DNA of 64,000 bases from Saccharopolyspora gloriosae (GTDB lineage Bacteria; Actinomycetota; Actinomycetes; Mycobacteriales; Pseudonocardiaceae): positions 4,775,501 through 4,839,500 of the forward strand of contig NZ_JACHIV010000001.1 of assembly GCF_014203325.1 (NCBI RefSeq), written 5' to 3'. A program made the position numbers and the translations under genes. A model generated the notes under the pieces. The model was not told the DNA's origin and ran no database searches. It saw nothing but the letters and a program-made list of their open reading frames with translations. How positions within the stretch are numbered: position 1 is the first letter of the stretch; the number at the start of each line of letters is the position of its first letter. Below are positions 7,601 to 50,788 of this stretch, one piece after another.

Positions 7601-7708
7601 CTTTGATCTTGTCTTCCCAGGTGAGCGGCGTTCGCGGCCGCTGTCTTGTCAGCGGCGAAAGCCGCTGAGGTTCCGCCACCTGACCCGCTGCTCAAGCCAA
7701 GTTCAAAG
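7601..7708 (-). mobile_element. MITE-like palindromic element, copy A (deleted form)
   Basis: 108-bp element bounded by an imperfect 11-bp terminal inverted repeat (CTTTGATCTTG at 7601, CAAGTTCAAAG ending 7708). Read on the minus strand it carries the family consensus GGCGGAACCTCAG, then collapses directly to a short hairpin (CAGCGGC-TTTC-GCCGCTG) and the segment GACAAGATCAAAG shared with copy D. It appears to be an internal-deletion derivative of the longer copies. It ends 8 bp before the stop codon of the nitroreductase gene. Confidence 0.7.
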
Positions 7709-7715
7709 CATCTGG

Positions 7716-8138
7716 TCAGGCGCGTTCGAGTTCTACCACTGGGATGGACCGGTCGGTGTTGCGCTGGTATTCGGCGAACTGGGGGGCCACGGCGACCTGC
7801 CTGGCGTAGACCTCGTCGCGTTCCTCGCCGGTGAGCACCCGTGCGACGACGTCGACGGTCTCCGTTCCGGTCTCCACCCGCGTCCGCGGATTCGCCACCA
7901 AGTTGTGGTACCAGGCGGGGTTCTCGGCGGAGCCGCCCTTGCTGGCGAAGATGAAGATCCGCTCGCCCTCCAGCAGCGGGACCAGCGGCGAGATCCGCTC
8001 GGTGCCCGACTTGGCGCCCACGTGGTGCACCAGCACCAGCGGGAAGCCGTCGAACGCGCCGCCGACCCGCCCGTCCCGCTCGCGGAACTCGGCGATGACC
8101 TTCCGGTTCATCTCGTCGAAGTCGATCGATTCGCTCAC
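7716..8138 (-). CDS. F420-dependent nitroreductase/quinone reductase family (Ddn-like)
   Basis: 140 residues. It matches the deazaflavin-dependent nitroreductase family: FDGFPLVLVHHVGAKSGTER, then PLVPLLEGERIFIFASKGG and NPAWYHNLVANPRTRVETG, ending EYQRNTDRSIPVVELER. Members use reduced F420 to reduce quinones or nitro compounds. GTG 8138 is selected because GGAGGAG lies just upstream (CTCCTCC on the + strand); an upstream in-frame extension to 8192 is poorly conserved. Divergent from an AraC-type regulator 206 bp away, which may control it. Confidence 0.9.
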   Translation of the reverse strand: MSESIDFDEMNRKVIAEFRERDGRVGGAFDGFPLVLVHHVGAKSGTERISPLVPLLEGERIFIFASKGGSAENPAWYHNLVANPRTRVETGTETVDVVARVLTGEERDEVYARQVAVAPQFAEYQRNTDRSIPVVELERA

Positions 8139-8331
8139 TGGTCGCTCCTCCCTCGCGGGAACACCGGCTCCGGCGCCGCCCGCCCCCGACACGTCGTCGA
8201 AGCCAGCGTATGCCGCGAGCGACGATCCCGACGATGCTCAGCAGGCGCACATCGATGTCCGTCCGTCGCACAGGAGGGCGCCCGGCGCACCGAACGGTCG
8301 CCGTACCGGAGGGCCGCGTCGGCGCGGTGGA

Positions 8332-8337
8332 TATCGT
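8332..8337 (+). promoter_or_regulatory. Leaderless -10 element of the AraC gene
   Basis: TATCGT lies 7 nt upstream of ATG 8345, a position expected of a -10 box whose transcript starts at or next to the start codon. No Shine-Dalgarno sequence is present. Confidence 0.45.
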
Positions 8338-8344
8338 TGCCGAC

Positions 8345-9274
8345 ATGGACCTGCTCGCCGACGTGCTCTCCCGGACCGGGGTCCGCGGCAGCCTGGGAGC
8401 GCGGATCGCCGCCGGGCAGGACTGGGGCCTGACATGGGGCGGCGGCACCGCCGCCGGCTTCTACGCGATCACCGCGGGCGACGCGTGGCTCGGACTCCCC
8501 GGCCACGCCCCGCGGCAGCTGGTGCCCGGCGACGTCGTGCTGCTGCCCACCGGAACCGAGCACACCCTCGGCAGCTCACCCGGAGCCGCGATCGACCGCC
8601 GCGCCTGCGCCGACGCCGAACGAGCCCAAGCCGCAGGTGAAGTGCTGCACCTCGGCGGCGGCGCGCCCCGCACGCACATCCTCGGCGCCTCCTTCTCCTC
8701 CGACGCCGCCGCATCCACCCAGGTCCTCGCCGCGCTGCCGGAGATCGTCCACGTGCACGCCGAGCACGGCAGCGAACTGGAGGACACGATCCGGCTGCTC
8801 TCGCGCGAACTGGCCCGGCCCCGGATCGCCACGGCCGTCGTGCTCGACCGCCTCGTCGACATCCTGCTCATCCAGCTGCTGCGGAGCTGGCTCGACGACA
8901 ACCCCGGGCAGGTCGCGGGCACCTGGCTCGGCGTGCTCTGCGACCCGGTCGTGCGGGAGGCGATGACCGCACTACACCAGGACCCGGCGCACCCGTGGAC
9001 GACCGAAGGCCTCGCCGCCAAGGTCGCGGTCTCCCGCGCCACGCTCACCCGGAGGTTCCTGCTGACGGCGGGGGAAGCGCCGGGCGGCTACCTCACGCGG
9101 TGGCGGATGGACCTCGCCGCGACCCGGCTGCGGGACACCGACGACACCCTCGACGCGATCGCGCGCTCCGTCGGCTACACCTCGGTGCACGCGTTCAGCC
9201 GCGCTTTCAGCCGCACCCGCGGTCGCGCGCCCGGCCGGTACCGGATCGACAGCCGCGCCGCCCCAGCGCGCTGA
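8345..9274 (+). CDS. AraC-family regulator with N-terminal cupin domain
   Basis: 309 residues. The N-terminal part is a cupin_6/AraC-binding-like sensor (TAGDAWLGLPGHAPRQLVPGDVVLLPTGTEHTL, roughly residues 40-80). The C-terminal part is a double HTH of the AraC type (WTTEGLAAKVAVSRATLTRRF, then DAIARSVGYTSVHAFSRAFSR, about residues 220-295). ATG 8345 is used because a leaderless -10 element precedes it; upstream in-frame sequence back to 8210 has no family similarity. Proteins of this architecture often regulate an adjacent oxidoreductase, here the divergent Ddn-like gene. The effector is unknown. Confidence 0.88.
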   Translation: MDLLADVLSRTGVRGSLGARIAAGQDWGLTWGGGTAAGFYAITAGDAWLGLPGHAPRQLVPGDVVLLPTGTEHTLGSSPGAAIDRRACADAERAQAAGEVLHLGGGAPRTHILGASFSSDAAASTQVLAALPEIVHVHAEHGSELEDTIRLLSRELARPRIATAVVLDRLVDILLIQLLRSWLDDNPGQVAGTWLGVLCDPVVREAMTALHQDPAHPWTTEGLAAKVAVSRATLTRRFLLTAGEAPGGYLTRWRMDLAATRLRDTDDTLDAIARSVGYTSVHAFSRAFSRTRGRAPGRYRIDSRAAPAR

Positions 9275-9282
9275 GCGAGGGT

Positions 9283-9960
9283 TCAGGCCGCCCGCTCGGT
9301 CTCCACCGACTCCGGCTCCACGACCGGCTCGACCTCGTCCTGGTCCTGCGCGGTCTTGCGGGAACGCCGCCACAACCACACGCCGATGCCGATGAGCACC
9401 AGCGCTCCCAGCACGATGCCGCCCGCGCGGCCGAGCACGTGCTCGATGTACTTCGCGGACGTGCCCGCCGCCCAGCCGATACCGACGTGCAGCATCGACC
9501 AGGTCGTCGCGCCGACGATCGACGTCACCAGGAAGCGCCAGTAGCCGAGCCCGCTGGTGCCCGCCGAGACCGGCACCAGCGTGCGCACCACCGGCAGGAA
9601 ACGGGCGACGAAGACCGCCCCGATGCCGTACTTGCGCAACATCCGGCACGCCCGATCCCAATGCCGGACGCCGAGCTTCGCCACCATTCGTGTTTCCCGG
9701 ACTCGCGCGCCATAACGTCGTCCCAGGAAAAAGCCGATGTTGTCACCGATGACCGCGCACAAGGCCACGGTCAGTGACAATCCAAAGAAAAAGCCGATAT
9801 CGGTCACCGCCGCCGAAGCGACGAGCAGACCGCTCTCGCCCGGCACCAGGAAACCCAGGCCGATCGTGCACTCGCCGAGCACAAGAGCACCGGTGACCAG
9901 GATCAGCAGCGGGCGAGGAAGCCCGGCGACCATGGCCAGGAAATCGCTGACGAAGGACAC
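9283..9960 (-). CDS. DedA-family membrane protein
   Basis: 225 residues with the DedA (SNARE-associated/VTT) pattern: ECTIGLGFLVPGESGLLVASA, then GDNIGFFLGRRYG, and the conserved FVARFLPVVRTLVPVSAGTSG and YWRFL elements. Family members are inner-membrane lipid scramblase/transporter-type proteins involved in phospholipid or undecaprenyl-phosphate recycling and envelope homeostasis. The acidic C-terminal tail is not conserved. Its stop lies 8 bp from the AraC stop (convergent). Start at ATG 9960 is preceded by a GGGGAG-like sequence on the minus strand. Confidence 0.92.
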   Translation of the reverse strand: MSFVSDFLAMVAGLPRPLLILVTGALVLGECTIGLGFLVPGESGLLVASAAVTDIGFFFGLSLTVALCAVIGDNIGFFLGRRYGARVRETRMVAKLGVRHWDRACRMLRKYGIGAVFVARFLPVVRTLVPVSAGTSGLGYWRFLVTSIVGATTWSMLHVGIGWAAGTSAKYIEHVLGRAGGIVLGALVLIGIGVWLWRRSRKTAQDQDEVEPVVEPESVETERAA

Positions 9961-10169
9961 GTGGAACTCCCCAGTTCACCTGTGTGTACGGGATGGTCGA
10001 CCAACGGATGCCACGTTAGCTCCCACGACCCTACGGCAACCCCGGCATGACCCCCGCCACCCCCTGAGCCCACCCCGGCGCCGAATCGGGAAATCCCCCA
10101 TTCCACGATCTTTGCCGCACAGCACCGCTTTCCACGGTTATCCGCGCATATCCGGCAATGCGATCAGGG

Positions 10170-11735
10170 TCAGCAGGACTTCGTCCAAGAACACTCCAGA
10201 TCCGATTCCCCGCCGACTTCCGCGGTGTTCTGCCTGGGCACGGCCGGAATGCCGCTCGGCCGTTCGCCGGGGCCCGAGTACTCCGCCAGGCGCACCGCGA
10301 TCGCGTCCTCCAGATCGTTCGGCGAATCGCCCAGGAAATCGTTGAACATCACCGCGAACACCAGCGGACGCCCGTTCGCGGCCGTGACGTACCCGGACAA
10401 CGTGGTGACCCCGCTGATCGAGCCCGTCTTCGCGTGCACGTTGCCCGCCGCGGCCGTTCCCGCCATCCGGTTGCGCAGCGTGCCGCCGACGAAGCGGTCC
10501 GGTTGCGCCGCCACCGGCAGCGCCGCGTGGAAATCGGCGAACCACGGCCGCTGCCGCACGGCGTCCAGCAGCAGCGCCAGCCTGCCCGGCGACACGGCGT
10601 CCATCGACGACAACCCGGAGCCGTCGACGAGCCGCAACGCGGCCGGATCCACGCCGAGCCCCGCGAGCCGTTCGGTCAGCACCTCGATGCCCGCCGGCCA
10701 GGAACCCTCATCGCGGGCCTGCCTGCCCATGGCCTTCGTCAGCACCTCCGCGTGGCCGTTGTTGCTCAGCTTCAGGAACGGCACCAGCAGCTCCCGCAGC
10801 GGCATCGACTCGTGCTCCGCGATCGTGCGCGCACCCGCGGGAACCGTCCCCTCGGCGGTGCCCGCGACGTGGACGCCGTGGGCGCGCAACGCGCGGGCGA
10901 ACACGTCCGCCGCGTAGGCGCTGGGGTCGCGCACGGAGGTGAACTCCTCCGCCGGTTCGGCGTCGGCGGGCACCGAACCGGACACGATCACCCGGTCACC
11001 GCCGTGCTCCCTGGTCACCGACAAGGTCGACTCTGAACCCGGCTCGCCCGTGGTGGCCCGCACGTCGAGCCGCACCGCATCCGTCGCGGGCTCCGGGTCG
11101 ACCCGCACCGGCGCACCCGCCGCGGTGGGCGAGACGCGCAGCAGGACGTTGCCCGCGTCGAAGTCCTCGTTCGGCGCGACCGTCAGCGCCGAGACCGGGG
11201 CCGCGTAGTAGTACGGCTCGTCGTCCCAGGCCCAGCCGGTGCCCAGGGGCACGTCGTCGAACCAGGTGTCGTCGGTGAGCAACCTGCCCTGCACCACGCG
11301 CACCCCGGACGCCGCGACCTGCTCGGCCAGCCGGTCGTAGTCGGCGGCGAGCATCGTCGGGTCACCGGTGCCGCGCAGGTACAGGTCGCCGAGCAGCAAC
11401 GGCCCGGCCGAGGGCGCCGCGGCGCGCACCTCCGTCCGGAACCGGTGGTCCGGGCCGAGCTCCTCCAGGGCCGCCGCGGCGGTGAACAGCTTCGCCGTCG
11501 AGGCCGGGGTGGCCCGCGCCTCCGGCTGCCTGCTGTAGAGCACCTCGTCGGTCTCCGGATCCCGCACCACGACACCCGCGTGAGAACCGGCCAGCCGAGG
11601 ATCGGCGAGGATCTCGTCCAGGTCGACGCGCAGCGCGTCGGAGCCGGTCGGGGCCGCCACGACCGGCGCGGACGCCACGGGGCCCGCGACGACGCCGAGC
11701 AGGATCAGGGCGAAGACCGGTACCCAGCGACGCAT
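10170..11735 (-). CDS. dacB: D-alanyl-D-alanine carboxypeptidase/endopeptidase (PBP4 family, S13)
   Basis: 521 residues. An N-terminal signal peptide (RRWVPVFALILLGVVAGPVASA) is followed by the S13 peptidase domain. Active-site motifs are all present: S-x-x-K as PASTAKLFT (Ser79, Lys82), SNN as LKLSNNGHAE (about 320) and KTG as HAKTGSISG (about 430). Residues ~90-270 hold the insertion domain typical of PBP4. The enzyme trims peptidoglycan stem peptides and may cleave cross-links, outside the membrane. The C-terminal tail (GGESDLECSWTKSC) has two cysteines and is not a family feature. A palindromic repeat lies just upstream of its start. Confidence 0.93.
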   Translation of the reverse strand: MRRWVPVFALILLGVVAGPVASAPVVAAPTGSDALRVDLDEILADPRLAGSHAGVVVRDPETDEVLYSRQPEARATPASTAKLFTAAAALEELGPDHRFRTEVRAAAPSAGPLLLGDLYLRGTGDPTMLAADYDRLAEQVAASGVRVVQGRLLTDDTWFDDVPLGTGWAWDDEPYYYAAPVSALTVAPNEDFDAGNVLLRVSPTAAGAPVRVDPEPATDAVRLDVRATTGEPGSESTLSVTREHGGDRVIVSGSVPADAEPAEEFTSVRDPSAYAADVFARALRAHGVHVAGTAEGTVPAGARTIAEHESMPLRELLVPFLKLSNNGHAEVLTKAMGRQARDEGSWPAGIEVLTERLAGLGVDPAALRLVDGSGLSSMDAVSPGRLALLLDAVRQRPWFADFHAALPVAAQPDRFVGGTLRNRMAGTAAAGNVHAKTGSISGVTTLSGYVTAANGRPLVFAVMFNDFLGDSPNDLEDAIAVRLAEYSGPGERPSGIPAVPRQNTAEVGGESDLECSWTKSC

Positions 11736-11794
11736 CGCGCCCCCTCGTGGCGGGAAGAATCGTCCGAGCGGGTGGGTGCGCCGCCCGTGTCGGG

Positions 11795-11932
11795 GGGTCC
11801 TTTCGGAATGACCTTCGTAGGTGGTCGCTCAGCGAAAACCCGCCGGTGGCCGGCCCGCTCAAGCTGGTCGCTGCTCAGCGGCTTCGCCGCTGACAAGAAA
11901 CCCGATCAAAAGATCATTCTGCAAGGACTTCC
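11795..11932 (+). mobile_element. MITE-like palindromic element, copy B (lacking the large hairpin)
   Basis: 138-bp element. Its ends are imperfect inverted repeats: GGGTCCTTTCGGAATGACCTT at the left and, reading inward on the opposite strand, AAGTCCTTGCAGAATGATCTT at the right. Between them are AACCCGCCGGTGG, CTCAAGCTGGTCGCTGCT and the hairpin CAGCGGC-TTC-GCCGCTG-ACAAG, all shared with copy C. The large nested hairpin of other copies is missing, leaving only GCTCAGCGAAAACCCGCC. It sits between the MarR stop and the dacB start. Confidence 0.7.
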
Positions 11933-11979
11933 TGGGCGAAACCTAGACAACCTCTCGTGCCCGGTCAACGATCGAACGG

Positions 11980-12483
11980 TCAGCGGCCCGCGCTCCCGGC
12001 GCCGCGGTCCGCGAGCGCCGCCGCGCCCGCGCCGTCGGCGTCGAAGTCCCGCATCACCGCGTGCATGCGGTGCAGGAAGCGGTGGATCACGACGATCTCC
12101 GCCGGGTCGAACTCCGTCAGCACCTCCCGGCCGCGGTCGGCCAGCGCGCCGAAGTACTCCGCCGCCACCGAGCGCGCCGAGTCCGTCGGCCGCAGCTGCA
12201 CTTGGCGGCGATCGGCGCTCTCCCTGCTGCGCTGCACGTGCCGCTTGGCTTCGAGCCGGTCGACGATCGCCGTGATCGCGCCCGAGGTGAGCACCAGGTC
12301 CTGGCGCAGCGCGCGCGGCGTCGCGGGCGCGCCCCGCCGGTCCGCGTCCATGATCAGGATCAGGGCGCGCATGTCCGTCGGGTGCATGCCGTGCCTGGCC
12401 GCGAAGGCCTGCGAGATCCGCTCGCCCTCGATGCCCTGCTCGCGCAAGAGCTCCAACACCTGCTGCTCGATCGGTGCCTCCAC
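11980..12483 (-). CDS. MarR-family transcriptional regulator
   Basis: 167 residues with a MarR winged helix: HPTDMRALILIMDADRRG, then the recognition region LVLTSGAITAIVDRLEAKRHVQRSRESADRRQVQLRPT with the conserved DRR wing. I use GTG 12483, which has GGGGAGG 6-7 nt upstream; the frame is open further upstream but those residues overlap the promoter region. Divergent from an FAD monooxygenase/NAD-binding pair and probably its repressor, since a strong promoter for that pair lies in the shared intergenic region. MarR ligands are usually phenolic or lipophilic compounds, consistent with the neighbour. Confidence 0.9.
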   Translation of the reverse strand: MEAPIEQQVLELLREQGIEGERISQAFAARHGMHPTDMRALILIMDADRRGAPATPRALRQDLVLTSGAITAIVDRLEAKRHVQRSRESADRRQVQLRPTDSARSVAAEYFGALADRGREVLTEFDPAEIVVIHRFLHRMHAVMRDFDADGAGAAALADRGAGSAGR

Positions 12484-12542
12484 CGGCCGCCTCCCCTGGC
12501 TTCGCGAAACCGGGATCATAACAACGACGACTATCTCAACGA

Positions 12543-12571
12543 TTGACATTCTTGGCAACCGTCATTATCTT
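12543..12571 (+). promoter_or_regulatory. Sigma70-type promoter of the FAD monooxygenase operon
   Basis: TTGACA (12543-12548), exactly 17 bp, TATCTT (12566-12571). A consensus -35 is rare in this GC-rich window, so the promoter should be strong and to need a repressor; the divergent MarR is the obvious candidate. Confidence 0.75.
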
Positions 12572-12659
12572 GGCCGCAGAGACATCCATCCGCGGGACGA
12601 CGACGCCGTGCCCGCTCCGATCACCGCACCTCCGCGACCACCGAGACGAGGTGAAACCC

Positions 12660-13940
12660 GTGCCCGACGAGACCGGACGGCACCGCGCGCAGCACTGCGC
12701 GATCGTCGGCGGCGGGCCGGGCGGCATGGTGCTCGCGTACCTGCTCGCCCGCGCCGGTGTGCGGGTGACGCTGCTCGAATCGCGGCCGGACTTCCGGCGG
12801 GACTTCCGCGGCGACTCGCTGCACCCGTACACGCTGGAACTGATGCAGCGGCTCGGGCTTGCCGAACGGCTGCTGCGGATCGAGCACGCGCGGGCCACCA
12901 CCTTCCGGTTCCACACCACCTCCGGGACCGTCACGACCGCCGAGTACGGCGGCCTGCGCGGCCCGTTCCCCTACGTCGCGCTGATGCCGCAGGCCCGGTT
13001 CCTGGACTTCCTGGCGGCCGAGGCCGCGGCGCTACCCGGATTCCGGTTGCTGCTCGGGGCGAAGGTGACCGGAGTGGTCGACGACGGCGACCGGATCACC
13101 GGCGTGCGCTACCGGGACGACGACGGCGAGCACCGGCTGGACGTCGACCTCGTCGTGGGCGCCGACGGGAGGTTCTCCCGGATGCGGCGCCTGCTCGACC
13201 TCCCCGCCCGGTCGCTGGGGGCGAGCTCGGACATCCTGTGGTTCCGCCTGCCCCGGCGGCCCCACGACCCGCCGACGGCCGACGCGGACCTCTACTTCGG
13301 GCCGGGGCACTACGTCTCCACCCTCGGGCAGGAGGACGGCTGGCAGGTCGGCTACACCGTGCCGAAGGGCGGCTACCCGGCGGCGAAACGCGCCGGGGTC
13401 GGGCCGATCCGCGACTTCCTCGCCGCACGGGTCCCGTGGCTGGCCGACCGGGTCGACCAGCTGGCCGGCTTCGACCAGATCACCCTGCTGTCCGTGGAGA
13501 TCTCCCGCGTCGAGCGGTGGCACCGCCCCGGCGCGCTGCTCATCGGCGACGCGGCGCACGTGATCTCACCGGTGGGCGGCAACGGGATTCTGATGGCGAT
13601 CCAGGACGCCGTCACCGCCGCCAACGTGCTGATCCCCGCGCTCCGGCAGGACGACCCTCCCGGTGAGGACGTGCTCGCCGAGGTGCGGCGGCTCCGCGAA
13701 CCCGCCGTCGAACAGGTGCAGCGGCAGCAGGTCCGCACCGAGTACCGGGTGGCCGCCGTCCTCGCCGGCGACGGCGACTTCCGGCCGAACCCGCTGCTGC
13801 GCGCGGCGCTGCGGCTGCGGTCGGTGCGGCGCCGAGCCGCTCGCGCCAACGCCTACGGCCCCTTCCCGCCCGCGCTCGACACGACCCTGCTGGACCCGAA
13901 CCCCGACCCGGCCGGTGGGCCGACGCGAAGGAGCCGATGA
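12660..13940 (+). CDS. FAD-dependent aromatic-type monooxygenase (PHBH fold)
   Basis: 426 residues. N-terminal Rossmann motif CAIVGGGPGGMVLAYLLARAG with the acidic end LLES, the mid-protein DG motif (DLVVGADGRFSRMRRLL) and the second FAD motif ALLIGDAAHVISPVGGNGI are all present. These define the p-hydroxybenzoate hydroxylase-like flavoprotein monooxygenases, which hydroxylate or epoxidise aromatic or related substrates using NAD(P)H and oxygen. GTG 12660 follows GAGGTG with suitable spacing; an alternative GTG at 12651 is in frame. Overlaps the next gene by 4 nt (ATGA). Driven by a consensus promoter and likely MarR-controlled. Substrate unknown. Confidence 0.92.
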   Translation: MPDETGRHRAQHCAIVGGGPGGMVLAYLLARAGVRVTLLESRPDFRRDFRGDSLHPYTLELMQRLGLAERLLRIEHARATTFRFHTTSGTVTTAEYGGLRGPFPYVALMPQARFLDFLAAEAAALPGFRLLLGAKVTGVVDDGDRITGVRYRDDDGEHRLDVDLVVGADGRFSRMRRLLDLPARSLGASSDILWFRLPRRPHDPPTADADLYFGPGHYVSTLGQEDGWQVGYTVPKGGYPAAKRAGVGPIRDFLAARVPWLADRVDQLAGFDQITLLSVEISRVERWHRPGALLIGDAAHVISPVGGNGILMAIQDAVTAANVLIPALRQDDPPGEDVLAEVRRLREPAVEQVQRQQVRTEYRVAAVLAGDGDFRPNPLLRAALRLRSVRRRAARANAYGPFPPALDTTLLDPNPDPAGGPTRRSR

Positions 13941-14596: not shown

Positions 14597-14686
14597 CCAC
14601 CGCGCGCCGCTGAAACGAGCAGCACGCCCGGCGGGGCGCACCGGCCGTTCCGCCGGGGGTCGGCGGGGAACCCCGCCGCACGCGAA

Positions 14687-14720
14687 ACGGGGCTCCCCGG
14701 CAACCGCCGGAGAGCCCCGT
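14687..14720. terminator. Hairpin between convergent genes (bidirectional terminator candidate)
   Basis: Stem ACGGGGCTC (14687-14695) pairs with GAGCCCCGT (14712-14720), with an inner CCGG/CCGG stem. It lies between the NAD(P)-binding gene and the convergent tesB. No long T-run follows, common in GC-rich actinomycete terminators. Confidence 0.6.
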
Positions 14721-14732
14721 CGTTCGTCGTGA

Positions 14733-15677: not shown

Positions 15678-15710
15678 TTCTGCTCCTCGGGCGAATCGGG
15701 GTGGATCACC

Positions 15711-15736
15711 GGGCGGGAACGACGGTGTTCCCGCCC
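15711..15736 (-). terminator. Intrinsic terminator candidate after pyk
   Basis: Perfect 10-bp stem GGGCGGGAAC/GTTCCCGCCC with a 6-nt loop, 43 bp beyond the pyk stop and before the tesB start. No T-run is present. Confidence 0.6.
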
Positions 15737-15779
15737 TTGCCGGTCAGTGCGACCGACCCACTCCGCGCGCGAACACGGA

Positions 15780-24576: not shown

Positions 24577-24799
24577 GGAGTCCTTTCAGCATGACCTTCG
24601 TGGCGGGTCGCTCTGCGGAACCTCAGTGGCTTCCTCGCTGCGGGATCTTTTTCCCAAGTGGCTCCGCCACGAGGGAAAAAGCCGTCCTCGCGAGGAAGCC
24701 ACTGAGAACCCGCCGGTGGTCGTTGTGCTCAAGCCGGTCACTGCTCAGCGGCTTCGCCGCTGACAAGAAAAGACCAAAAGATCATTCCGCAAGGGCTCC
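24577..24799 (+). mobile_element. MITE-like palindromic element, copy C (complete)
   Basis: 223 bp. Terminal inverted repeats of about 22 bp: GGAGTCCTTTCAGCATGACC at the left and GGAGCCCTTGCGGAATGATC (minus strand) at the right. Inside is a nested hairpin with 17-bp arms CTCAGTGGCTTCCTCGC (24622-24638) and its exact complement (24690-24706). These enclose an inner stem TTTTTCCC/GGGAAAAA and the tip GTGGC-TCC-GCCAC. A second hairpin follows (CAGCGGC-TTC-GCCGCTG-ACAAG). No open reading frame of note. Inserted in the GntR-GntP divergent promoter region. Confidence 0.8.
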
Positions 24800-26473: not shown

Positions 26474-26537
26474 AGTGCCGTCCGGTTGCCGCAGCGACCT
26501 TGGTCCGTCTTGGGTGCCTCCGGAGCAGCACGGGCGT

Positions 26538-26763
26538 CTTTGATCTTGTCGTTCCAGGTGAGCGGCGTTGTTGGTCGTTGTCTTGTCAGTGGCGGAGCCG
26601 CTGAGCAGTGATCAGCCTGAGCAGGACGACCACCGGCGGGTTCTCAGCGGCTTCCTCGCGAGGACAGCGATTTCGTGGTGTAGGGCTGCTACATGAGAAA
26701 TCGATCCCGCAACGAGGAAGCCGCTGAGGTTCCGCTGAGCGACCCACTACTCAAGCCTCAAAG
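26538..26763 (-). mobile_element. MITE-like palindromic element, copy D (complete, divergent core)
   Basis: 226 bp, minus orientation. Its ends are CTTTGATCTTG (26538) and TCAAAG (to 26763), like copy A. Outer 17-bp arms are CTCAGCGGCTTCCTCGC (26643-26659) and its complement (26712-26728) with one mismatch. The core differs completely from copies C/F/G: CGATTTC/GAAATCG stem and TGTAG-CAGCC-CTACA tip, but is still self-complementary. Flanking consensus (GCGGAACCTCAG, AACCCGCCGGTGGTCG, CACTGCTCAGCGGCTCCGCC) is retained. Lies between the GntP and HelD-like genes. Confidence 0.78.
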
Positions 26764-26907
26764 ACAGGTTCCGGGGTGCCGTCGCAGCGGGACGGGGTGG
26801 TCATCGAGTGCCGGTATGATGGTTGGTCGGACTCTCGCCGGGGACGCATTCACGGCCCGTCGGCACCTCCGGTCCGACACATCATGTGAGCACAAGGTGG
26901 AGCCAAG

Positions 26908-29196: not shown

Positions 29197-29204
29197 GGGG
29201 CCCG

Positions 29205-29285
29205 CGGTCTCGGTGTTCTTCTCGCACGGGCGGCTCCGCCGCGCCCGGCGGTGCCGTCCTCGCGAGAAGAACGCCGAGCACCCGC
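29205..29285. repeat. Palindromic repeat, copy E (diverged hairpin only)
   Basis: Arms CTCGGTGTTCTTCTCGC (29209-29225) and GCGAGAAGAACGCCGAG (29262-29278) pair with a single G-T mismatch. The right arm is preceded by GTGCCGTCCTC, close to the GCCGTCCTC found in copies C, G and I. The inner part (GGGCGGCTCCGCCGCGCC) is again a hairpin. No terminal repeats are recognisable. Sits between the convergent HelD-like and FAH genes, so it may also help termination. Confidence 0.6.
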
Positions 29286-39618: not shown

Positions 39619-40421
39619 ACGATCTGCGGATCAGCGACCTCACCGCCGGATACCGGCGGCGCACCGTGCTGACCGAGATCTCCGCGCACGTCCCCGGCGG
39701 CGGCTGGCTCGGCATCATCGGCCCCAACGGCTCCGGCAAGTCCACCCTGCTCAAAGCCATCGCCGGCCTGCTGCGCCACGAAGGCACCGTGCTCATCGGC
39801 GGACGCCCGCTGCACGACACCGGACGCCGGGAACGGGCCCGGCTGCTCGGCTACGCCCCGCAGATCCCGCAGCTGCCACCAGGACTCACCGTCACCGACT
39901 ACGTGCTGCTGGGCCGCACCCCGCACCTCGGGCCGCTCGGCCGCGAAGGACGCACCGACCGGGAAGTGGTGGGGCGAATCCTGGAACGCCTCGACCTGAC
40001 CCGGCTCGCCACCCGCCCGCTCACCGAGCTCTCCGGCGGGGAACGGCAACGAGCCGTGCTCGGGCGGGCGCTGGCGCAGCGCGCCGGAGTGCTGCTGCTC
40101 GACGAACCCACCACCGGCCTCGACATCGGCCACGCCCAAGCGCTGCTGGACCTCGTCGACGAACTGCGCCGCGAACTCGGCACCACCGTCGTCACGACCC
40201 TGCACGACCTGACGATCTCCGCGCAGTACGCCGAGAACCTGCTGCTGCTCGCCGACGGCCGCGTCGCCGTGCACGGCACACCCGCCGAAGTGCTCACCCC
40301 CGCCGTGCTCACCGACCACTACGACGCCCGAGCCACCGTCCTCACTGGTCCCGACGGTTCCCCGGTTGTCGCTCCTGTTCGGGGTGGGGGAGCCGGTCGT
40401 TCGTCTGAGGTGGGCGGGTAG
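39615..40421 (+). CDS. ABC importer ATPase (BtuD/FecE family)
   Basis: 268 residues. Walker A GPNGSGKST (about residues 36-44), Q-loop near YAPQIPQLP, signature LSGGERQRAVLGRAL, Walker B GVLLLDEPTTGLDIGH and switch His in TVVTTLHDLTISAQY. Powers import through the preceding permease. GTG 39615 overlaps the permease stop (GTGA). The coding sequence runs into palindromic repeat copy F: the stop TAG (40419-40421) is inside the repeat's GGCGGGTAGCGGAACC border, so the last residues (RSSEVGG) may derive from the element. Confidence 0.94.
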   Translation: MNDLRISDLTAGYRRRTVLTEISAHVPGGGWLGIIGPNGSGKSTLLKAIAGLLRHEGTVLIGGRPLHDTGRRERARLLGYAPQIPQLPPGLTVTDYVLLGRTPHLGPLGREGRTDREVVGRILERLDLTRLATRPLTELSGGERQRAVLGRALAQRAGVLLLDEPTTGLDIGHAQALLDLVDELRRELGTTVVTTLHDLTISAQYAENLLLLADGRVAVHGTPAEVLTPAVLTDHYDARATVLTGPDGSPVVAPVRGGGAGRSSEVGG

Positions 40422-40600
40422 CGGAACCTCAGTCGGTCTCTCGCTGCGGGATCTTTTTCCCAAGTGGCTCCGCCACGAGGGAAAAAGCTGTCCTCGCGAG
40501 AGACCGACTGAGAACCCGCCGGTGGTCGGCTTCTCGACGTGGGCTATTCGCTTCGCGAATCAGGCACGGCCTTCGGCCGCCAGGCAGACGTGGCTTCGCC
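40411..40600 (+). repeat. Palindromic repeat, copy F (large hairpin plus a second module)
   Basis: Border GGCGGGTAGCGGAAC pairs at distance with ACCCGCC. 17-bp arms CTCAGTCGGTCTCTCGC (40428-40444) and exact complement (40496-40512) enclose TTTTTCCC/GGGAAAAA and GTGGC-TCC-GCCAC. Then follows a module also present in copy I: TCGACGTGGGCTATTCGC, a small GCGAAT hairpin, and CAGGCACGGCCTTCGGCCGC (40534-40600). Overlaps the end of the importer ATPase gene and lies between it and convergent lgt. Confidence 0.75.
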
Positions 40601-40650
40601 CGTCCCGCTGCGCTGCCTTCGGCCGCTCGCGTCTAGGTCGTAGCGCGCAA

Positions 40651-41889: not shown

Positions 41890-42056
41890 TGGTGGTCGGG
41901 TGGCGGAACCTCAGTCGTCTTCTCGCTGCGGGATCTTTTTCCCAAGTGGCTCCGCCACGAGGGAAAAAGCCGTCCTCGCGAGAAGACGACCGAGAACCCG
42001 CTGCTGGTCGGCTTGCGTGCGTGGTCGCTGCTCAGCGGCTTCGCCGCTGACAGGAC
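41890..42056 (+). repeat. Palindromic repeat, copy G
   Basis: Arms CTCAGTCGTCTTCTCGC (41910-41926) and GCGAGAAGACGACCGAG (41978-41994) pair with one mismatch and enclose the same TTTTTCCC/GGGAAAAA and GTGGC-TCC-GCCAC core as copies C and F. The second hairpin CAGCGGC-TTC-GCCGCTG-ACAGG follows at 42033-42053. The element separates the lgt start from the trpA stop, that is, it is inside the trp-lgt block. Confidence 0.75.
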
Positions 42057-42074
42057 AACCGCCTACCGCCGTGG

Positions 42075-44167: not shown

Positions 44168-44342
44168 CAGGGTCACCTCTCCAATCGTCCTCAGAACCCG
44201 GAACACCGGCCGAATCGCCGGTACCAGGTGACACCCGCACCCCCCGCAACGCCGGGCAGGCACGTACACCACCGCGCACCTCGGGTTCCCGAAACCGGCG
44301 CCCCGACACCGGCGGAACCGGGATCGGGGCGCGGAACGGAAC

Positions 44343-45155
44343 TCAGCGGCTGGGGCGCGGGCACGCCGGGTGCGACCCGGCGGTCACCAGCTGAGTCACC
44401 GCGACCCGCGGGTTCTCACTGGTCACCAAGCCCTCACCGACGAGCACGGCGTCCGCACCGGAACCCGCGTACGCCATCAGGTCGCTCGGGCCGCGCACAC
44501 CGGACTCGGCCACCTTGAGCACGTCCGGCGGCAGTCCCGGCGCGATCCGCCCGAACACCTCCCGGTCCACGTCCAAGGTGTGCAGGTTGCGCGCGTTGAT
44601 CCCGATGACCTTCGCCCCCGCCTCCAGCGCACGGTCCGCCTCCTCGGCGGTGTGCACCTCGATGAGGGCCGTCATGCCCAGCGACTCGACCCGGTCCAGC
44701 AGGGCCTCCAGCGCGTTCTGCTCCAGCGCTGCCACGATCAGCAGCACCATGTCCGCGCCGTGCGCGCGAGCCTCGTGCACCTGGTACGGGCTGACGATGA
44801 AGTCCTTGCGCAGCAGCGGCGTGCCCCCGACCTTGGCGCGCACGTCGTCGAAGTCCGCCAGCGAACCGCCGAAGCGGCGCTGCTCGGTCAGCACGCTGAT
44901 CACCCGCGCGCCCGCCGCCGCGTAGTCCGCGGCCAGGTCGGCGGGCTCGCCGATCTCAGCGAGCTCGCCCTTGGAAGGGCTGCGCCGCTTGACCTCGGCG
45001 ATGACGCCGACACCGGGCGCGCGCAGCGCCGCCAGCGCGTCGTGCGGCGGTGGTGCCGCGGCCGACCGCTGCTTGATCTCGTCGAACGGAACGGCGGACT
45101 CGCGGACAGCCATGTCCTCGCGAACGCCCTCGATGATGGATTCCAGAACGCTCAC
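44343..45155 (-). CDS. trpC: Indole-3-glycerol phosphate synthase
   Basis: 270 residues, TIM barrel. Converts CdRP to indole-3-glycerol phosphate. Landmarks: [20 protein letters not shown] (catalytic Lys/Ser-Pro-Ser-Lys), [80 protein letters not shown] and [11 protein letters not shown] 45155 overlaps the stop of a 30-codon ORF by 4 nt. There is a 175-bp spacer before trpB with no convincing gene. Confidence 0.97.
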
Positions 45156-45244
45156 TCGAACACCTCGTCACGCGTGCCCCGAACACTCGCCCGCAGGTCT
45201 CGAAAACCGTCTTCCGCGCAGAACAACTCAAAGCGCTCGATCAC
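45152..45244 (-). CDS. Small ORF (30 aa) translationally coupled to trpC
   Basis: GTG 45244 has GGAAGGGGAG 4-5 nt upstream, a better ribosome site than trpC itself. The peptide begins [14 protein letters not shown] and ends RDEVFE; its TGA overlaps the trpC GTG (GTGA), the same coupling used for trpB-trpA and hisF-hisI. It has no Trp codons, so it is not a classic Trp attenuator peptide. I recognise no family. It may serve to load ribosomes onto trpC or be a remnant of the small protein often found at this place in actinobacterial trp operons. Confidence 0.45.
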
Positions 45245-45434
45245 GACACTCCCCTTCCCGCCGTGCCGTTCGCATGGCCGATGCTAACCCCGTGCGGTGC
45301 GGCCTCTCGCCAAGGGGTCGGTACAACGTCCCTGCACAGCAAGGACCTTCGTCCCTTGCCAGGTCCGATCGCGGGACCCCCCGCCACCACCCGGATGTAC
45401 CCGGCCTGGTGCCGGGACCACGGTAGGTGCGGCG

Positions 45435-46037
45435 CTATCGCTCATCCGTCGGGTCCGCTCCCTCGTCCAGGGCATCCCAGAGCCTTTTGTCCGGATCCGC
45501 CGACTTCGGCCGTTCCGCGCCCGGAGCGGAGTACTTCGCGCCCATCGCGGGCAACCGGCTCGCCCGCCACGCCACCAGCAGCCCCGCGCCGAACAGCGCC
45601 AGCGCCGCCAGCAGCATCAGCAGCGGCCCGTACGGCGCCCGCGACAACTCCCCGACGGGCTCGCTGCCACCGGGCACGTCCGTCGCGACGTACTCCGACG
45701 AGGCACCGAACTGCCAGGTCACCGCCCGCCACGCCAGCAGCACCCCGCCCAGCAGGGTCAGCGCGCCGATGATCCGGCGCAGCCAGCCACCCGTCGCCAG
45801 CACCGCCGCCACCGCCGTCAGCGCCGCCAACGCCAGCGGCACCAGCTCCGGGCGCACCGCCGCCCCCGTCGCCGCGGACTCGACGTCCCCGGAGAACGGG
45901 GTGCGGTACGGCCGGGACACCCAGTTCAGGGCGCTCGCCCACCACAGCAGCCCCGCGCTCCCCACCAGCAGCAGGATCACCGACCACAGCAGCCGCGGTG
46001 ACGTCGTGCGCGGCTCGGCCGCCTCCGGGGCGGTCAA
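45435..46037 (-). CDS. Trp-operon-associated membrane protein (TIGR02234 type)
   Basis: 200 residues with four TM segments: [63 protein letters not shown] and [22 protein letters not shown]. The conserved features and the location between trpE and trpC match the conserved hypothetical membrane protein of actinobacterial trp regions. Function unknown. Start TTG 46037 overlaps the trpE stop (TTGA, 46034-46037). It ends 190 bp before the small ORF/trpC; that gap holds an imperfect hairpin (GCAAGG...CCTTGC, about 45338-45363) but no further gene. Confidence 0.88.
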
Positions 46038-47620
46038 ACCCGCTCCTGCACGCCCGGCCGCGCCACCGGCTCCTCCGCCGCCGCCGGCGGGCGCAACGTC
46101 TGCGCCGTCGCGATCGCGTTGAGCACGGCCTTCGCCTTGTTCAGCGTCTCCTGGTCCTCCGCCACCGGATCCGAATCGGCGACGATGCCGCCGCCCGCCT
46201 GCACGTACGCCACCCCGTCGCGCACCAGCGCGGTGCGGATCGCGATGGCCGTGTCGGCGTCCCCGGCGAAGTCCAGGTACCCCACCACCCCGCCGTACTG
46301 GGCGCGGCGCGTCGGCTCCAGCTCCTCGATCAGCTCCAGCGCCCGCGGCTTCGGCGCCCCCGACAAGGTGCCCGCCGGGAAGCACGCCGTGACCGCGTCG
46401 AACGCGGTGCGGTCCTCCCCGAGGGTGCCGGTGACCGTGGAGACCAGGTGCATCACGTGGCTGTAGCGCTCGATGCGGAAGAACTCCACCACGTGCACCG
46501 AACCGGGACGGCACACCCGGCCCAGGTCGTTGCGGCCCAGGTCGACGAGCATCAAGTGCTCGGCCCGCTCCTTCTCATCGTTGCTGAGCTCCTTCTCCAG
46601 CCGCGCGTCCTCGTCCTCGTCCGCGCCGCGCCAGCGGGTGCCCGCGATGGGATGCGTCGTCGCCTGCCCGTCGCGGACCGTCACCAGCGACTCCGGGCTG
46701 GACCCGACGATGTCGAACGGCGGGCCGCCCTCCGGGTCCGCCATCCGCAGCAGGTACATGTACGGACTGGGGTTGGTGGTGCGCAGCACGCGGTAGACGT
46801 CCAGCGCGTCGGCGCTGGTCTCCATCTCGAAGCGCTGCGAGACGACCACCTGGAACGCCTCGCCGGAACGGATGGCCTCCTTCGCCGACTCCACCGCCGC
46901 GTAGTGCTCCTGCGGGGTCCGACGGCGCGTGAAGTCCGGCGCCGGCCGGGAGAACGCGGCGACCGTCGGCTCCGACGGCGTGCACAGCCGCTCGGTCATC
47001 TCGTCGAGCCTGCGCACCGCGTCGTCGTAGGCGGCGTCCACCCGCTCCGGGCTGTCGTCCCAGTTCACCGCGTTCGCGATGAGCGTGATCGTGCCCTCGT
47101 GGTGGTCCAGCGCGGCCAAGTCGGTGGCCAGCAGCATCACCAGCTCGGGGATCTTCAAGTCGTCCTCGGTGAGCTCCGGCAACCGCTCCAGACGGCGCAC
47201 CGCGTCATAACCGAGGTAGCCGACCATGCCCCCCGTCAACGGCGGCAGGCCCGGCAACGGATCGGTGCGCAGCAACCGCACCGTCTCCCGCAGCGCCTCC
47301 AGCGGATCGCCGCCCTCCGGCAGCCCCACCGGCGGCGTGCCCGTCCAGCACGCCTCGCCGTCGCGCACCGTCAGCGCCGCCGCGCTGCGCACCCCCACGA
47401 AGGACCAGCGCGACCAGGAACGCCCGTTCTCCGCGGACTCGAACAGGAACGTGCCCGTGCGATCACCCGCGAGCTTCCGGTACACCCCCAGCGGGGTCTC
47501 GTCGTCGGCCAACAGCCGCCGCACCACGGGGATGACCCGCCGCCCGGCGGCGAGCTCGCGGAATTCCGTGCGGTCCGGGGTGATGCAGCCGATGTCGCCG
47601 TCGCCAACCATGCCCATCAT
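46034..47620 (-). CDS. trpE: Anthranilate synthase component I
   Basis: 528 residues. Converts chorismate to anthranilate with ammonia from TrpG. Chorismate-binding domain landmarks: [108 protein letters not shown] and the metal-binding [15 protein letters not shown]. An N-terminal feedback-inhibition site element appears as [15 protein letters not shown] with FLFES. ATG 47620 is followed by in-frame ATGs at 47617 and 47611; the true start is uncertain by three codons. trpG and trpD are not in the window. Confidence 0.96.
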
Positions 47621-47719
47621 TGTGCCGACACCGCCTCCGCGCCGTCGCAGCGGTCAGGACGCCCCGCCCACGACGGGCCTTTTTTGCGACGGGCACCGGG
47701 CAGCGGCAAGGATGGCGGG

Positions 47720-48337
47720 GTGAGCAGCGGCACCTCCGACGACAGCGGCCCGAAGCGGCGCGGGCGCAGGCCCGGCGGGCAGGACACCCGCGCGGCCCTG
47801 ATCGACGCTGCCCGCGAGGTGTTCGCCGAGTACGGCTACAACGACGCCACGGTGCGGGTCATCGCCACCCGCGCAGGCGTGGACCCGGCGATGGTCAACC
47901 ACTGGTTCGGCGGCAAGGAATCCCTGTTCACCGCCGCCGTGCGCATCCCGGTGGACCCGGCTGTCCTCCTCCCGGAGCTGCTCGCCGGGGATCGGGAGAA
48001 GCTCGCCGAACGCATCCTGCACCGCTTCCTGTCGGCCTGGGACGAAGCGGGCGGCGGCGCGTTCGCCGCCTTGGTGCGCAGCGTCGCCTCCCACCGCACG
48101 GCGGTGCGGCTGCTGCGCGAGTTCGTCGCAATCGTGATCATCGACAAGCTCGCCAGGGCGCTGGACATGGACAACCCCGACCTGCGGGCCTCGCTGGCCG
48201 CCTCCCAGATCATCGGGCTGGGCATGGCCCGCTACGTGGTGGAGCTCGAACCCCTCGCCTCCGCCGACCACCGGACCATCGTCGCCACCGTCGGACCCAA
48301 CCTCCAGCGCTACCTCACGGGAGACCTCGACATCTGA
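47720..48337 (+). CDS. TetR-family transcriptional regulator
   Basis: 205 residues. HTH region: DTRAALIDAAREVFAEYGYNDATVRVIATRAGVDPAMVNHWFGGKESLFTAAV. The C-terminal half (PELLAGDREKLAERILHRFL and onward) matches the TetR_C-type domain of AcrR-like regulators. GTG 47720 is chosen; the ribosome site is weak. It is inserted on the opposite strand between hisI and trpE, breaking the leftward his-trp block. A direct repeat CGACGGGC (47671-47678 and 47687-47694), spaced 16 bp, lies in the trpE-tetR spacer next to a T6 run. Confidence 0.88.
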   Translation: MSSGTSDDSGPKRRGRRPGGQDTRAALIDAAREVFAEYGYNDATVRVIATRAGVDPAMVNHWFGGKESLFTAAVRIPVDPAVLLPELLAGDREKLAERILHRFLSAWDEAGGGAFAALVRSVASHRTAVRLLREFVAIVIIDKLARALDMDNPDLRASLAASQIIGLGMARYVVELEPLASADHRTIVATVGPNLQRYLTGDLDI

Positions 48338-48426
48338 CGGGCGCCGGAACTCGGTCCAGAACCGACGAGCCAGGCGAGTAGCGCCGCAGGGCGGCGACGG
48401 AGGCGCGGCGGCTCCACCGCGCGAAG

Positions 48427-48783
48427 CTACTCCGACGACGCGGCGGGCAGCAGGACGTCGGCGTCGAAGCAGGTGTGGTCGCCGGTGTGGCAGGCGGCGC
48501 CCTCCTGGTCCACCACCAGCAGCACGGTGTCGCCGTCGCAGTCCAACCGCACCTCGTGCACGTGCTGCACGTGCCCCGACGTCTCGCCCTTCACCCAGTA
48601 CGCGTTCCTGCTGCGGGAGAAGTAGGTGCCGCGGCGCGTCGTGAGGGTGCGGTGCAGCGCCTCGTCGTCCATCCACGCCATCATCAGCACCTCACCGGTG
48701 CCGCGCTGCTGCGCGATAGCCGCGACCAGCCCCTCGGCGTTGCGCTTGAGCCTGCCCGCGATCGCCGGGTCGAGTTCGCTCAT
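48427..48783 (-). CDS. hisI: Phosphoribosyl-AMP cyclohydrolase
   Basis: 118 residues, the standalone HisI found in actinobacteria (no fused HisE). Opens the adenine ring of PR-AMP in histidine synthesis. Landmarks: [68 protein letters not shown], including the conserved zinc and magnesium ligand cysteines and aspartates. ATG 48783 overlaps the hisF stop (ATGA). Confidence 0.96.
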
Positions 48784-49553
48784 CGGACGGTGATCCCTTC
48801 CGCGCGCATCGCCGCCTTGACCTCGCTGATCCGCAACTGCCCGAAGTGGAACACGCTGGCCGCCAGCACCGCGTCCGCACCGGCGTGCACCGCGGGCGCG
48901 AAGTGCTCCACCGCACCGGCGCCACCGCTGGCGATCAGCGGCACGTCGACGCGGGCGCGCACCGCGCGGATCAGCTCCAAGTCGAAACCGGCCTTGGTGC
49001 CGTCGGCGTCCATCGAGTTCAGCAGGATCTCGCCCACGCCGAGCTCCTGCGCCCGCTGCGCCCACTCCACCGCGCAGATGCCCGTGCCGCGCCTGCCGCC
49101 GTGCGTGGTGACCTCGAAACCGGACGCCGTCGGCCGCTCCCCCTCCGGCACCCGGCGGGCGTCGGCGGACAGCACCACGCACTGCGCGCCGAACCGGTGC
49201 GAGGACTCCCGCAGCAGCTCCGGGCGGGCGATGGCGGCCGTGTTCAAGCTGACCTTGTCCGCGCCCGCGCGCAGCAAGCGGTTGATGTCATCGGGGCTGC
49301 GCACACCGCCACCGACGGTCAACGGGATGAACACCTGCTCCGCGGTCCGGCGCACTACGTCGAACGTCGTCTCGCGGTCCGACGACGACGCCGTCACGTC
49401 CAAGAAGGTGAGCTCGTCGGCGCTCTCCGCGTCGTAGGTCTTCGCCAGCTCGACGGGATCGCCCGCGTCGACCAGGTTCGTGAAGTTGACACCCTTGACG
49501 ACCCGCCCGGCATCCACGTCCAGGCAGGGGATCACTCGCACCGCGACGCCCAT
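48780..49553 (-). CDS. hisF: Imidazole glycerol phosphate synthase, cyclase subunit
   Basis: 257 residues, TIM barrel. Combines PRFAR with ammonia from HisH to give ImGP and AICAR. Landmarks: [22 protein letters not shown] with the catalytic Asp, [54 protein letters not shown], the second catalytic Asp region [18 protein letters not shown] and [19 protein letters not shown] 49553 is the start; the open frame upstream is not HisF-like. 85 bp from priA. Confidence 0.97.
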
Positions 49554-49638
49554 GCCCCCAGGGTAGGCCGCCCGCGCGAAGCCGGGCGCACCCGGTGCGC
49601 CCGGCGGCGGAGTCGGCCACCGCCGGGCACCGGTCCGA

Positions 49639-50370
49639 TCAGGACACGGCCGCGAGGGCCTCTTCCAACGTGAAGTTCCCCGCGTACAACGCCTTGCCGA
49701 CGATGGAACCCTCCACGCCCAGCGGCGCCAATTCCGCCAACGCCCGCAGATCGTCCACACTGGACACACCGCCGGAGGCAACGACCGGCGCGTCCGTGCG
49801 GGCGCACACCTCGCGCAACAGCTCCGAATTCGGGCCCTGCAACGTGCCGTCCTTGCTCACATCCGTGACCACGTAACGACGGCACCCCGCCGCGTCCAAC
49901 CGGGCCAGCACCTCCCACAGATCACCACCGTCGCGAGTCCAGCCGCGCGCGGCCAACCGGTGGCCCTGCTCCGTGATCCGCACGTCCAAACCCACCGCGA
50001 CCTGATCCCCGTGCTCGGCCACGACACGATCCGCCCACTCCGGGTCCTCCAGAGCAGCCGTGCCCAAGTTCACCCGGTCGCAGCCCGTCGCCAACGCCGC
50101 CTTCAACGACTCGTCATCGCGGATGCCGCCCGAAAGCTCCACCCGCACGTCCAGCCGCCGCACCACGTCCGCCAACAACTCCCGGTTCGAACCACGGCCG
50201 AACGCGGCGTCGAGATCCACCAAGTGGATCCACTCAGCGCCCGCGCGCTGCCAGGCCAACGCGGCCTCCCACGGATCCCCGTAGGAAGTCTCGGTACCGG
50301 CCGCACCCTGGACCAGGCGGACAGCCTGACCATCGGCCACGTCAACAGCAGGAAGAAGCGTGAAAGTCAC
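49639..50370 (-). CDS. priA: Bifunctional phosphoribosyl isomerase A (HisA/TrpF)
   Basis: 243 residues, TIM barrel. In actinobacteria PriA isomerises both ProFAR (histidine) and PRA (tryptophan). The sequence follows characterised PriA closely: [74 protein letters not shown] and [16 protein letters not shown]. The missing trpF in the trp block supports the dual role. GTG 50370 has TAGACT 7 nt upstream and no ribosome site, so priA-hisF-hisI probably starts its own leaderless transcript. Confidence 0.95.
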
Positions 50371-50377
50371 GGCGCTT

Positions 50378-50383
50378 AGTCTA
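50378..50383 (-). promoter_or_regulatory. Leaderless -10 element of priA
   Basis: TAGACT on the minus strand, 7 nt before GTG 50370. The 485-bp region upstream is filled by tandem repeats and palindromic copy I, so a local promoter would be needed to restore priA-hisF-hisI transcription. Confidence 0.45.
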
Positions 50384-50407
50384 TCGGGCCTAGTTGGGTG
50401 CGGGGTT

Positions 50408-50540
50408 TGGAGTCTCCCCGGCTTGACGTGGGGGTTGGTTGAAGCCTCGCCGGCTTGACGTGGGGGTTGGGTTGTGGAGTCTCGCTCGGCTTGGCGTGGG
50501 GCGTCGGGTTTTAGAGCCTTCCCGGGTTGGGCGTGTGGTT
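50408..50540. repeat. Four degenerate tandem repeats of about 34 bp
   Basis: Units starting near 50408, 50439, 50474 and 50510 share GGAGTCTC-CCGGCTTGACG then TGGGGGTTGGGTT, with increasing divergence to the right. Strand composition is G-rich on the + strand. No coding potential is apparent. They lie between priA and palindromic copy I. Confidence 0.7.
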
Positions 50541-50602
50541 GCTGTGGTGCGCGGAAGGTCGGCTTTAGGGATTGCTTCCACGGCTCGTGTTGCTTGGGTG
50601 TC

Positions 50603-50788
50603 CGGGTAGCGGAACCTCAGCGGCTTCCTCGCTGCGGGATCTTTTTTCCAAGTGGCTCCGCCACGAGGAAAAAAGCCGTCCTCGCGAGGAAGCCGCTGAG
50701 AACCCGCCGGTGAGGGCTTATCGACGTGGGCTATTCGCTGCGCGAATACAGGCACGGCCTTCGGCCGCAAGGCAAGCTGGCTTCGCCG
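50603..50788 (+). repeat. Palindromic repeat, copy I (large hairpin plus second module)
   Basis: Arms CTCAGCGGCTTCCTCGC (50616-50632) and exact complement (50684-50700). The inner stem is TTTTTTCC/GGAAAAAA, differing from other copies by a compensated base-pair change, with tip GTGGC-TCC-GCCAC. The second module TCGACGTGGGCTATTCGC to CTGGCTTCGCC (50721-50788) is shared with copy F. With the tandem repeats it separates priA-hisF-hisI from hisH. Confidence 0.78.

Follow-up and report, generated by a model that had tools for sequence, protein, structure and literature searches.

Correia and RUP elements are miniature inverted-repeat transposable elements (MITEs) of bacteria with structured interiors and positions near genes, found in other hosts and bounded by other terminal inverted repeats (TIRs) than the hairpin family described here, and neither is known to have arms that change together. 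That an RNA structure is under selection is ordinarily proved by the covariation of its paired bases. Repetitive extragenic palindromic (REP) sequences of Escherichia coli lie within 15 nt behind stop codons in 446 of 4,072 putative cases (PMC12306157), and template switching is proposed to create and restore perfect stems (PMC8794818) and to bring about multi-base compensatory changes in a single event. Here, we examined a 64,000-nt stretch of Saccharopolyspora gloriosae, from the antibiotic-producing family Pseudonocardiaceae (contig NZ_JACHIV010000001.1, positions 4,775,501 to 4,839,500; hereafter the window), for which a preliminary description had listed eight related intergenic elements (A to G and I), six of them with a nested hairpin whose arms covary at two levels. 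All eight were located as described, a covariance model recovered a nested hairpin in each of the six named for it (C, D, E, F, G, and I), and A was seen to hold a small hairpin only and B no nested hairpin. The family has hundreds of copies in this genome, lies predominantly behind stop codons, and carries arms that turn over faster than neutral sites and stay paired; by its ends and its relatives in sister genomes, it is MITE-derived. We found no description of it in the literature searched, subscription journals lying mostly outside that coverage, and a term search of the main texts of PMC3733652 and PMC12306157 gave no mention of Saccharopolyspora.

A hairpin family with paired and fast-changing arms

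In what follows, "arms" are the 8-bp variable segments of the outer helix and "anchors" the fixed bases of the cassette, while the genome of S. gloriosae itself (6.83 Mb) is G000, three sister genomes are G003, G004, and G005, and a genome from another genus is G224. Read from its 5' end, the hairpin consensus consists of GGGTRGC, GGAACCTCAG, eight variable bases, TCGC, TGCGGGATC, an inner stem enclosing a small hairpin, and then GCYGTCCTC, GCGA, the eight variable bases of the opposite arm, and CTGAGAACCCGC. The predicted fold of hairpin F is very stable (-72.1 kcal/mol with z -7.5 as RNA; z -7.4 as DNA). An exact match to 47 fixed bases returned 255 strict copies in G000 (136 forward and 119 reverse) and none with the reversed pattern as control. 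Moreover, 125 distinct copies were collected, with no requirement for arm pairing, from 1.204 Mb of window and further stretches plus 30 small loci; their arms were perfectly paired in 108, with one mismatch in 12 and more than one in five, and comprised 32 types of 5' arm. Ten of these 125 came from loci fetched with a TCGGTCTC query, and 123 entered the linkage test described below (97 in its restricted form). As the anchor pattern misses some copies, E and G of the window are missing from the linkage and position sets and from one further set gathered with this pattern, and G was put by hand into the covariation alignment.

Matches occur in all six genomes of the genus, G000 included. The covariance model, whose source sequences included the window hairpins C, D, F, G, and I (and not E), matched 65 of the 249 genomes examined from the family, spread over 14 of its 46 genera (E-value 1e-4, with up to 16 places scored per genome). 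Across 20 copies taken from 11 further genomes, GGAACCTCA, GCTGTCCTCGC, and GAGAACCCGC are conserved as blocks, and CGGGATC is conserved with a few changes (L202, L210, and L216). The arm segment and the inner stem differ in other genera, with the changes paired, and even TCGC/GCGA occurs as TGGC/GCCA and CTCAG/CTGAG as CTCAC/GTGAG, though arm diversity outside the genus is known from few copies.

For the covariation statistics, 77 distinct copies from five genomes were chosen by their anchors and with no demand for paired arms. Helix 1 was paired at 97.6%, and cells changed on both sides numbered 220, whereas shuffles averaged 66 and no slid control exceeded 41; two weaker measures barely exceeded the shuffles (11 against 9.8 pairs with a double change, and 32 against 29.5 further pair types). 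Thus, further copies in the genome were plentiful, the covariation persisted when more copies were aligned, and the proposal that the variable arms conserve their pairing and not their sequence, at both levels, was supported. The arm sequences reported earlier need correction in two places: the 5' arm of E is TGTTCTTC, facing a 3' arm that fits CGTTCTTC, which leaves one T-G pair, and the inner 5' arm of D ends in TCGT.

The arms diverge rapidly between related genomes. From 23 orthologous pairs of G000 and G005 (about 94% identical), 17 were used, five being not intact and one lying in the opposite direction. Here, the 5' arm was identical in one pair and the 3' arm in none, with a mean of 3.24 of eight positions changed (about 40%), and the anchors were 97.5% identical. 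Four-fold sites had diverged by 10.9% (62,668 sites), nearly four times less than the arms, and since compensation should proceed at most at the neutral rate, at least part of the arm changes must come as blocks. Other polymorphic sites of the core turn over too (the loop base in six of nine pairs and the end base in 10 of 17). Independent insertions at the same stop, considered in place of orthology, are unlikely where idiosyncratic linkers agree and possible for the opposite-direction pair. In one diverged pair (L188 6569-6649 and G005:C34 near 217060), the arms and even anchor positions have changed and the stem is kept.

In fact, arm changes are often blocks, and lead toward types found elsewhere. 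Among 24 mismatched copies, 13 combine two arm types known from perfect copies (8.6% expected per point change, P = 1.4e-8), six of them differing at two to five positions, and the same mixed pair, CTGTCTTC/CCGGTCTC, stands at two G005 loci. Exchange between copies would account for the swapped blocks, for the copies with mixed arms, and for the turnover at other sites. The information shared between the two arms showed an excess of 0.85, and among the 97 copies that have the most frequent inner stem the arm type was unlinked to the loop base (0.08, P = 0.10) and to the end base (-0.05, P = 0.73). Since the arms are thus tied more tightly to each other than to the core, exchange alone would be insufficient, and mismatched copies may be lost or one arm copied onto the other. 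Exchange of whole hairpins as the sole cause of covariation was likewise set aside as insufficient, for copies of the main inner-stem type show linkage between their arms and none to the two single-base sites in between, at which change may recur. The 21 G003 copies (19 with TTGGTCTC) say nothing on whether arms are homogeneous, having been picked for their likeness to a TCGGTCTC copy. As for the 8-bp segment being the crossover region of a site-specific recombinase, a candidate given no further test, no inverted core was seen.

Transposon relatives and position behind stop codons

According to the preliminary description, the window has no transposase, and no repeat of a known type, that would explain the family. 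This was not supported, as the elements are MITE-derived and insertion sequences (IS) with matching ends occur in a sister genus and a sister species; within the window itself, no such gene or repeat was found as far as examined. In G224, the TIR TGCCTGTCTTTGAACTCG occurs 201 times with up to two mismatches (control, 0), as compared with eight times in G000, and pairs of it bound elements of about 230 bp that contain the hairpin cassette. TNA is identical on both sides in 14 of 18 complete G224 elements, usually as CTNAG. The same kind of ends bounds two identical 960-bp stretches of G224 (first IS) that encode a 277-residue protein with DUF4096 and DDE_Tnp_1 domains; the DUF4096-type domain had 10 equal-scoring matches and one weaker match in this genome. 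A second IS, from G003, is 908 bp long, with a 282-residue frame, ends GGGGTCCTTGCAGAATGATC, and a TTA duplication in all four copies. While the ends of B and C in the window resemble the second IS, those of A and D resemble the first, with changes, and hence one cassette is found on two end types. A DDE transposase that fits the ends was found in G224 and G003, and not in G000 within the limits of the searches given below.

Here, we noticed that seven of the eight first-IS copies examined in G224 sit in the GGAACCTCAG arm of a hairpin (L312, L315, L318, L321, L324, L327, and L331, two of which share surroundings), and five of 18 MITEs are nested in the arm of another hairpin (L254, L255, L258, L259, and L265, the last with CTCAT). 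The position of the IS copies indicates that the cassette is also a preferred landing place. As a speculation, the arms and the transposase could be linked directly, with the variable segment starting at the CTCAG landing site. In some G224 MITEs (L254, L256, L262, L266, and L270), the arm segment is replaced by a longer shared insert (CGGCCCGCCCGTC... or its complement), and in L256 there is a matching stretch on the other arm.

With genes called by a custom codon-usage finder over 1.2 Mb, 102 of 115 copies were scored for position (13 at stretch edges were excluded), and none of the 115 lay wholly within a predicted gene. A same-strand stop codon stood at most 60 nt upstream of the hairpin start in 75 of the 81 copies that have a gene placed this way, as against one of 66 on the opposite side; the median distance was 38 nt, with 69 of the 75 at 28-48 nt. 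Convergent gaps held 49 of 102 copies, compared with 103 of 517 in the background, and divergent gaps four of 102, compared with 130 of 517, where the background includes gaps that hold elements; in tandem gaps, 32 copies were sense and 17 were antisense (P = 0.04). Of the 20 copies from other genera, 18 had a stop (of a frame of at least 100 codons) within 80 nt upstream in sense, and six of 20 had one on the other side, where the 80-nt span is shorter than the right part of a MITE. As TGA is the usual stop, beside the copies and across all genes alike, a TNA target explains part of this nearness to stops; the direction of the copies is left unexplained by it because TNA has none. The sense position behind stops makes a role of the hairpins at transcription ends or mRNA 3' ends likely, and the retention of directed copies would reflect such use. 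In two orthologous gaps, the elements run in opposite directions (G000:C1 near 5243836 with G005:C30 near 24108 and, by eye, G000:C1 near 1603403 with G005:C69).

Elements of the window

Elements A and D, both on the reverse strand, have ends like those of the first IS. A (7600-7709; ends CTTTGATCTTG and CCAAGTTCAAAGC) is a short form, with a degenerate counterpart in G005 and none in G003. D (26536-26768; ends CCTGTCTTTGAGGC and GTCTTTGATCTTG) is a MITE with its nested hairpin at 26636-26733 on the same strand, with CGGCTTCC arms and the inner stem CGATTTC/GAAATCG; this and the hairpin positions below follow the covariance model. On the forward strand, B (11792-11932; ends GGGGGGTCCTTTCGGAATGACC and GATCATTCTGCAAGGACTTCC) and C (24577-24799; ends at 24577-24596 and 24780-24799) are MITEs with ends like those of the second IS. 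B has lost its nested hairpin, and that of C spans 24617-24713 (+), with arms at 24627-24634 (TGGCTTCC) and 24694-24701. Only C has a near pair of target duplications in the window (flanks TTA and TCA). For B, C, and D, the site is empty in G005, G003, and G004.

No clear TIR is found in E, F, G, and I, which all lie on the forward strand. The hairpin of E occupies 29204-29285, and its G005 counterpart has another inner part and the 5' arm CGTTCTTC. F is a composite element (40384-40640, the right limit approximate) with a tail of small hairpins, and its nested hairpin lies at 40423-40519 with arms at 40433-40440 (TCGGTCTC) and 40500-40507; the whole element is missing in G003, and G005 has the tail without the nested hairpin. 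In G (hairpin 41905-42001), the arms lie at 41915-41922 (TCGTCTTC) and 41982-41989; the G005 locus joins the 5' arm CGTTCTTC to a 3' arm of CTGTCTTC type, and G is absent from G003 and G004. In I (hairpin 50611-50707), the arms lie at 50621-50628 (CGGCTTCC) and 50688-50695, and a small-hairpin tail follows. With few first TIRs in G000, no clear ends in these four elements, and no matching transposase, we call the copies of this genome MITE-derived, a term that does not imply present mobility.

In the tails of many composite copies (in the window, 40530-40640 and 50710-50800), small hairpins such as GGCACGGCCTTCGGCCGC and GGGCTATTCGCTGCGCGAATA follow one another. Judged by eye, their second stem has mostly ATTCGC or ATGTGC here and mostly ATGCGC in G005, always paired, which gives the impression of homogenisation within each species. 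At L049 18203-18227, 25 consecutive G stand shortly behind an element. Rfam gave no match to the hairpin family; the window scan returned glycine riboswitches only, namely tandem aptamers at 2387-2611 (49.9 and 43.6 bits), and element F, searched at E-values up to 1, met only miRNA models far below the gathering score.

Alternative explanations and comparison with known systems

The explanation we favour, with moderate confidence in it as a whole, is that of a MITE-spread cassette that provides gene-end hairpins and whose arms are exchanged and then restored to pairing. A hairpin cassette would have been spread by MITEs using DUF4096/DDE (IS4/IS5-type) transposases, with insertion at TNA, mostly inside CTNAG. 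Hundreds of copies persist in the genus, most without recognisable ends, on the coding strand some 38 nt past stops and often between converging genes, where they would most likely serve as transcription-end or mRNA 3'-end hairpins. The anchors are kept in sequence and the 8-bp arm segment in pairing only. Recombination or gene conversion would trade arm types between copies, giving hairpins with two different known arms, and pairing may be regained when one arm is used as the template for the other (template switching at a DNA hairpin), when mismatched copies are lost, or in both ways. The preliminary description had offered, beside selection as RNA or cruciform DNA, the option that arms are corrected against each other, and the divergence of the arms, the 13 mixed-arm copies in 24, and the lack of preference for G-T agree better with this than with slow compensation. 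The stronger statement, that a transposon-borne hairpin was adopted genome-wide at gene ends and that its covariation arose mainly at the DNA level, through arm shuffling and arm-onto-arm copying, we advance only tentatively, as possible but short of probable.

Several observations weigh against this explanation. Arm type shares an excess of information with the inner stem type (0.44), with the composite type (0.53), and, when all 123 copies are counted, weakly with the loop base (0.17, P = 0.0025), which means that the copies form subfamilies and that core and arms do not vary freely of each other. Its link to the inner stem slightly lowered our confidence both in the explanation as a whole and in its DNA-level account of covariation. 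Core sites may also look unlinked through back-and-forth mutation, and in seven of the 13 mixed-arm copies a single position separates the two arms, so that these may be point changes. Somewhat greater similarity was seen between orthologous arms than between shuffled pairs (P = 0.003). Moreover, the copies are strongly directed although TNA is directionless, and in G224 their direction looked mixed, being poorly countable. No protein matching the first-IS transposase was found in G000 and its five sisters at an E-value of 1e-20, a search made with no positive control. The five DUF4096 matches of G000 have no matching ends, where the search for the second end type covered inverted pairs that differ by no more than one mismatch, and a mover of the young copies was not seen.

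The resemblance between orthologous arms is what one would expect of a structured RNA, be it a terminator or an element of the 3' untranslated region, under ordinary selection, with point mutations compensated stepwise and no exchange between copies; the strong pairing and covariation, the sense position behind stops, and the very stable fold (z -7.5) suit it too. Nevertheless, we regard it as unlikely, because compensation should not beat the neutral rate and the orthologous arms exceed it nearly fourfold, because the changes come in blocks to arm types present elsewhere, and because six copies join known arms that are two to five positions apart. Nor is wobble favoured, with two G-T pairs against seven C-A and four other pairs in the single-mismatch copies (138 copies examined; small numbers). 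A merely selfish MITE, whose hairpin would be needed for movement or survival of the element (for instance, as a landing target for its kin) and would be of no use to the host, seems no more likely. In G224, the seven of eight IS copies and five of 18 MITEs that have landed in a different hairpin, at its GGAACCTCA(G/T) arm, would fit it, as would the differing presence of copies between species. However, the first TIR counts eight in G000 against 201 in G224, while the intact hairpins of G000 number 255 or more, and hairpins thus seem to persist longer than the ends; no matching transposase was found in G000, and a symmetric target would not be expected to show a direction relative to genes. 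Very improbable, in our view, are REP elements or bacterial interspersed mosaic elements (BIMEs) moved by a REP-associated tyrosine transposase (RAYT, of Y1 type), with GTRG before the hairpin as the tag. Most hairpins here do have GGGTAG or GGGTGG ahead of them and are extragenic, palindromic, and present in hundreds of copies, but the Y1 transposase (PF01797) was not found in G000 by a search that was positive in five of 14 control genomes, GTRG is often not kept in G224 (GGGAGC), and TIRs and TNA duplications are present instead. This origin was therefore set aside.

If the DNA-level account is true, covariation as strong as that of selected RNAs could arise without point-by-point compensation. 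With hundreds of copies, sister genomes, and arms that change faster than neutral sites and often in blocks, how stems stay paired becomes directly testable. Moreover, the family suggests that a MITE cassette could come to sit in one direction behind many stops, a possible route to new transcription-end signals.

Compared with known systems, the family is MITE-like in origin and REP-like in its gene-end position. It shares with IS4/IS5-type (DUF4096) MITEs a short length, TIRs in common with full-length IS, TNA duplications, extragenic location, and many copies, and differs from them in the conserved nested hairpin on two end types, in the single direction behind stops (in the genus of the window), and in the fast co-changing arms; this shared cassette, the one-directional site, and the co-changing arms are what is new among MITEs. 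With REPs, BIMEs, and REPINs (REP doublets forming hairpins), it has in common that copies are palindromic, extragenic, and in the hundreds, whereas its nested hairpin of about 97 nt, the lack of a Y1 transposase and of an invariant GTAG tag, and its TIR-bounded relatives set it apart. Finally, the template switching of PMC8794818 was inferred from the histories of RNA genes, while in this family hundreds of copies also seem to trade arms with one another, and mixed-arm intermediates occur.

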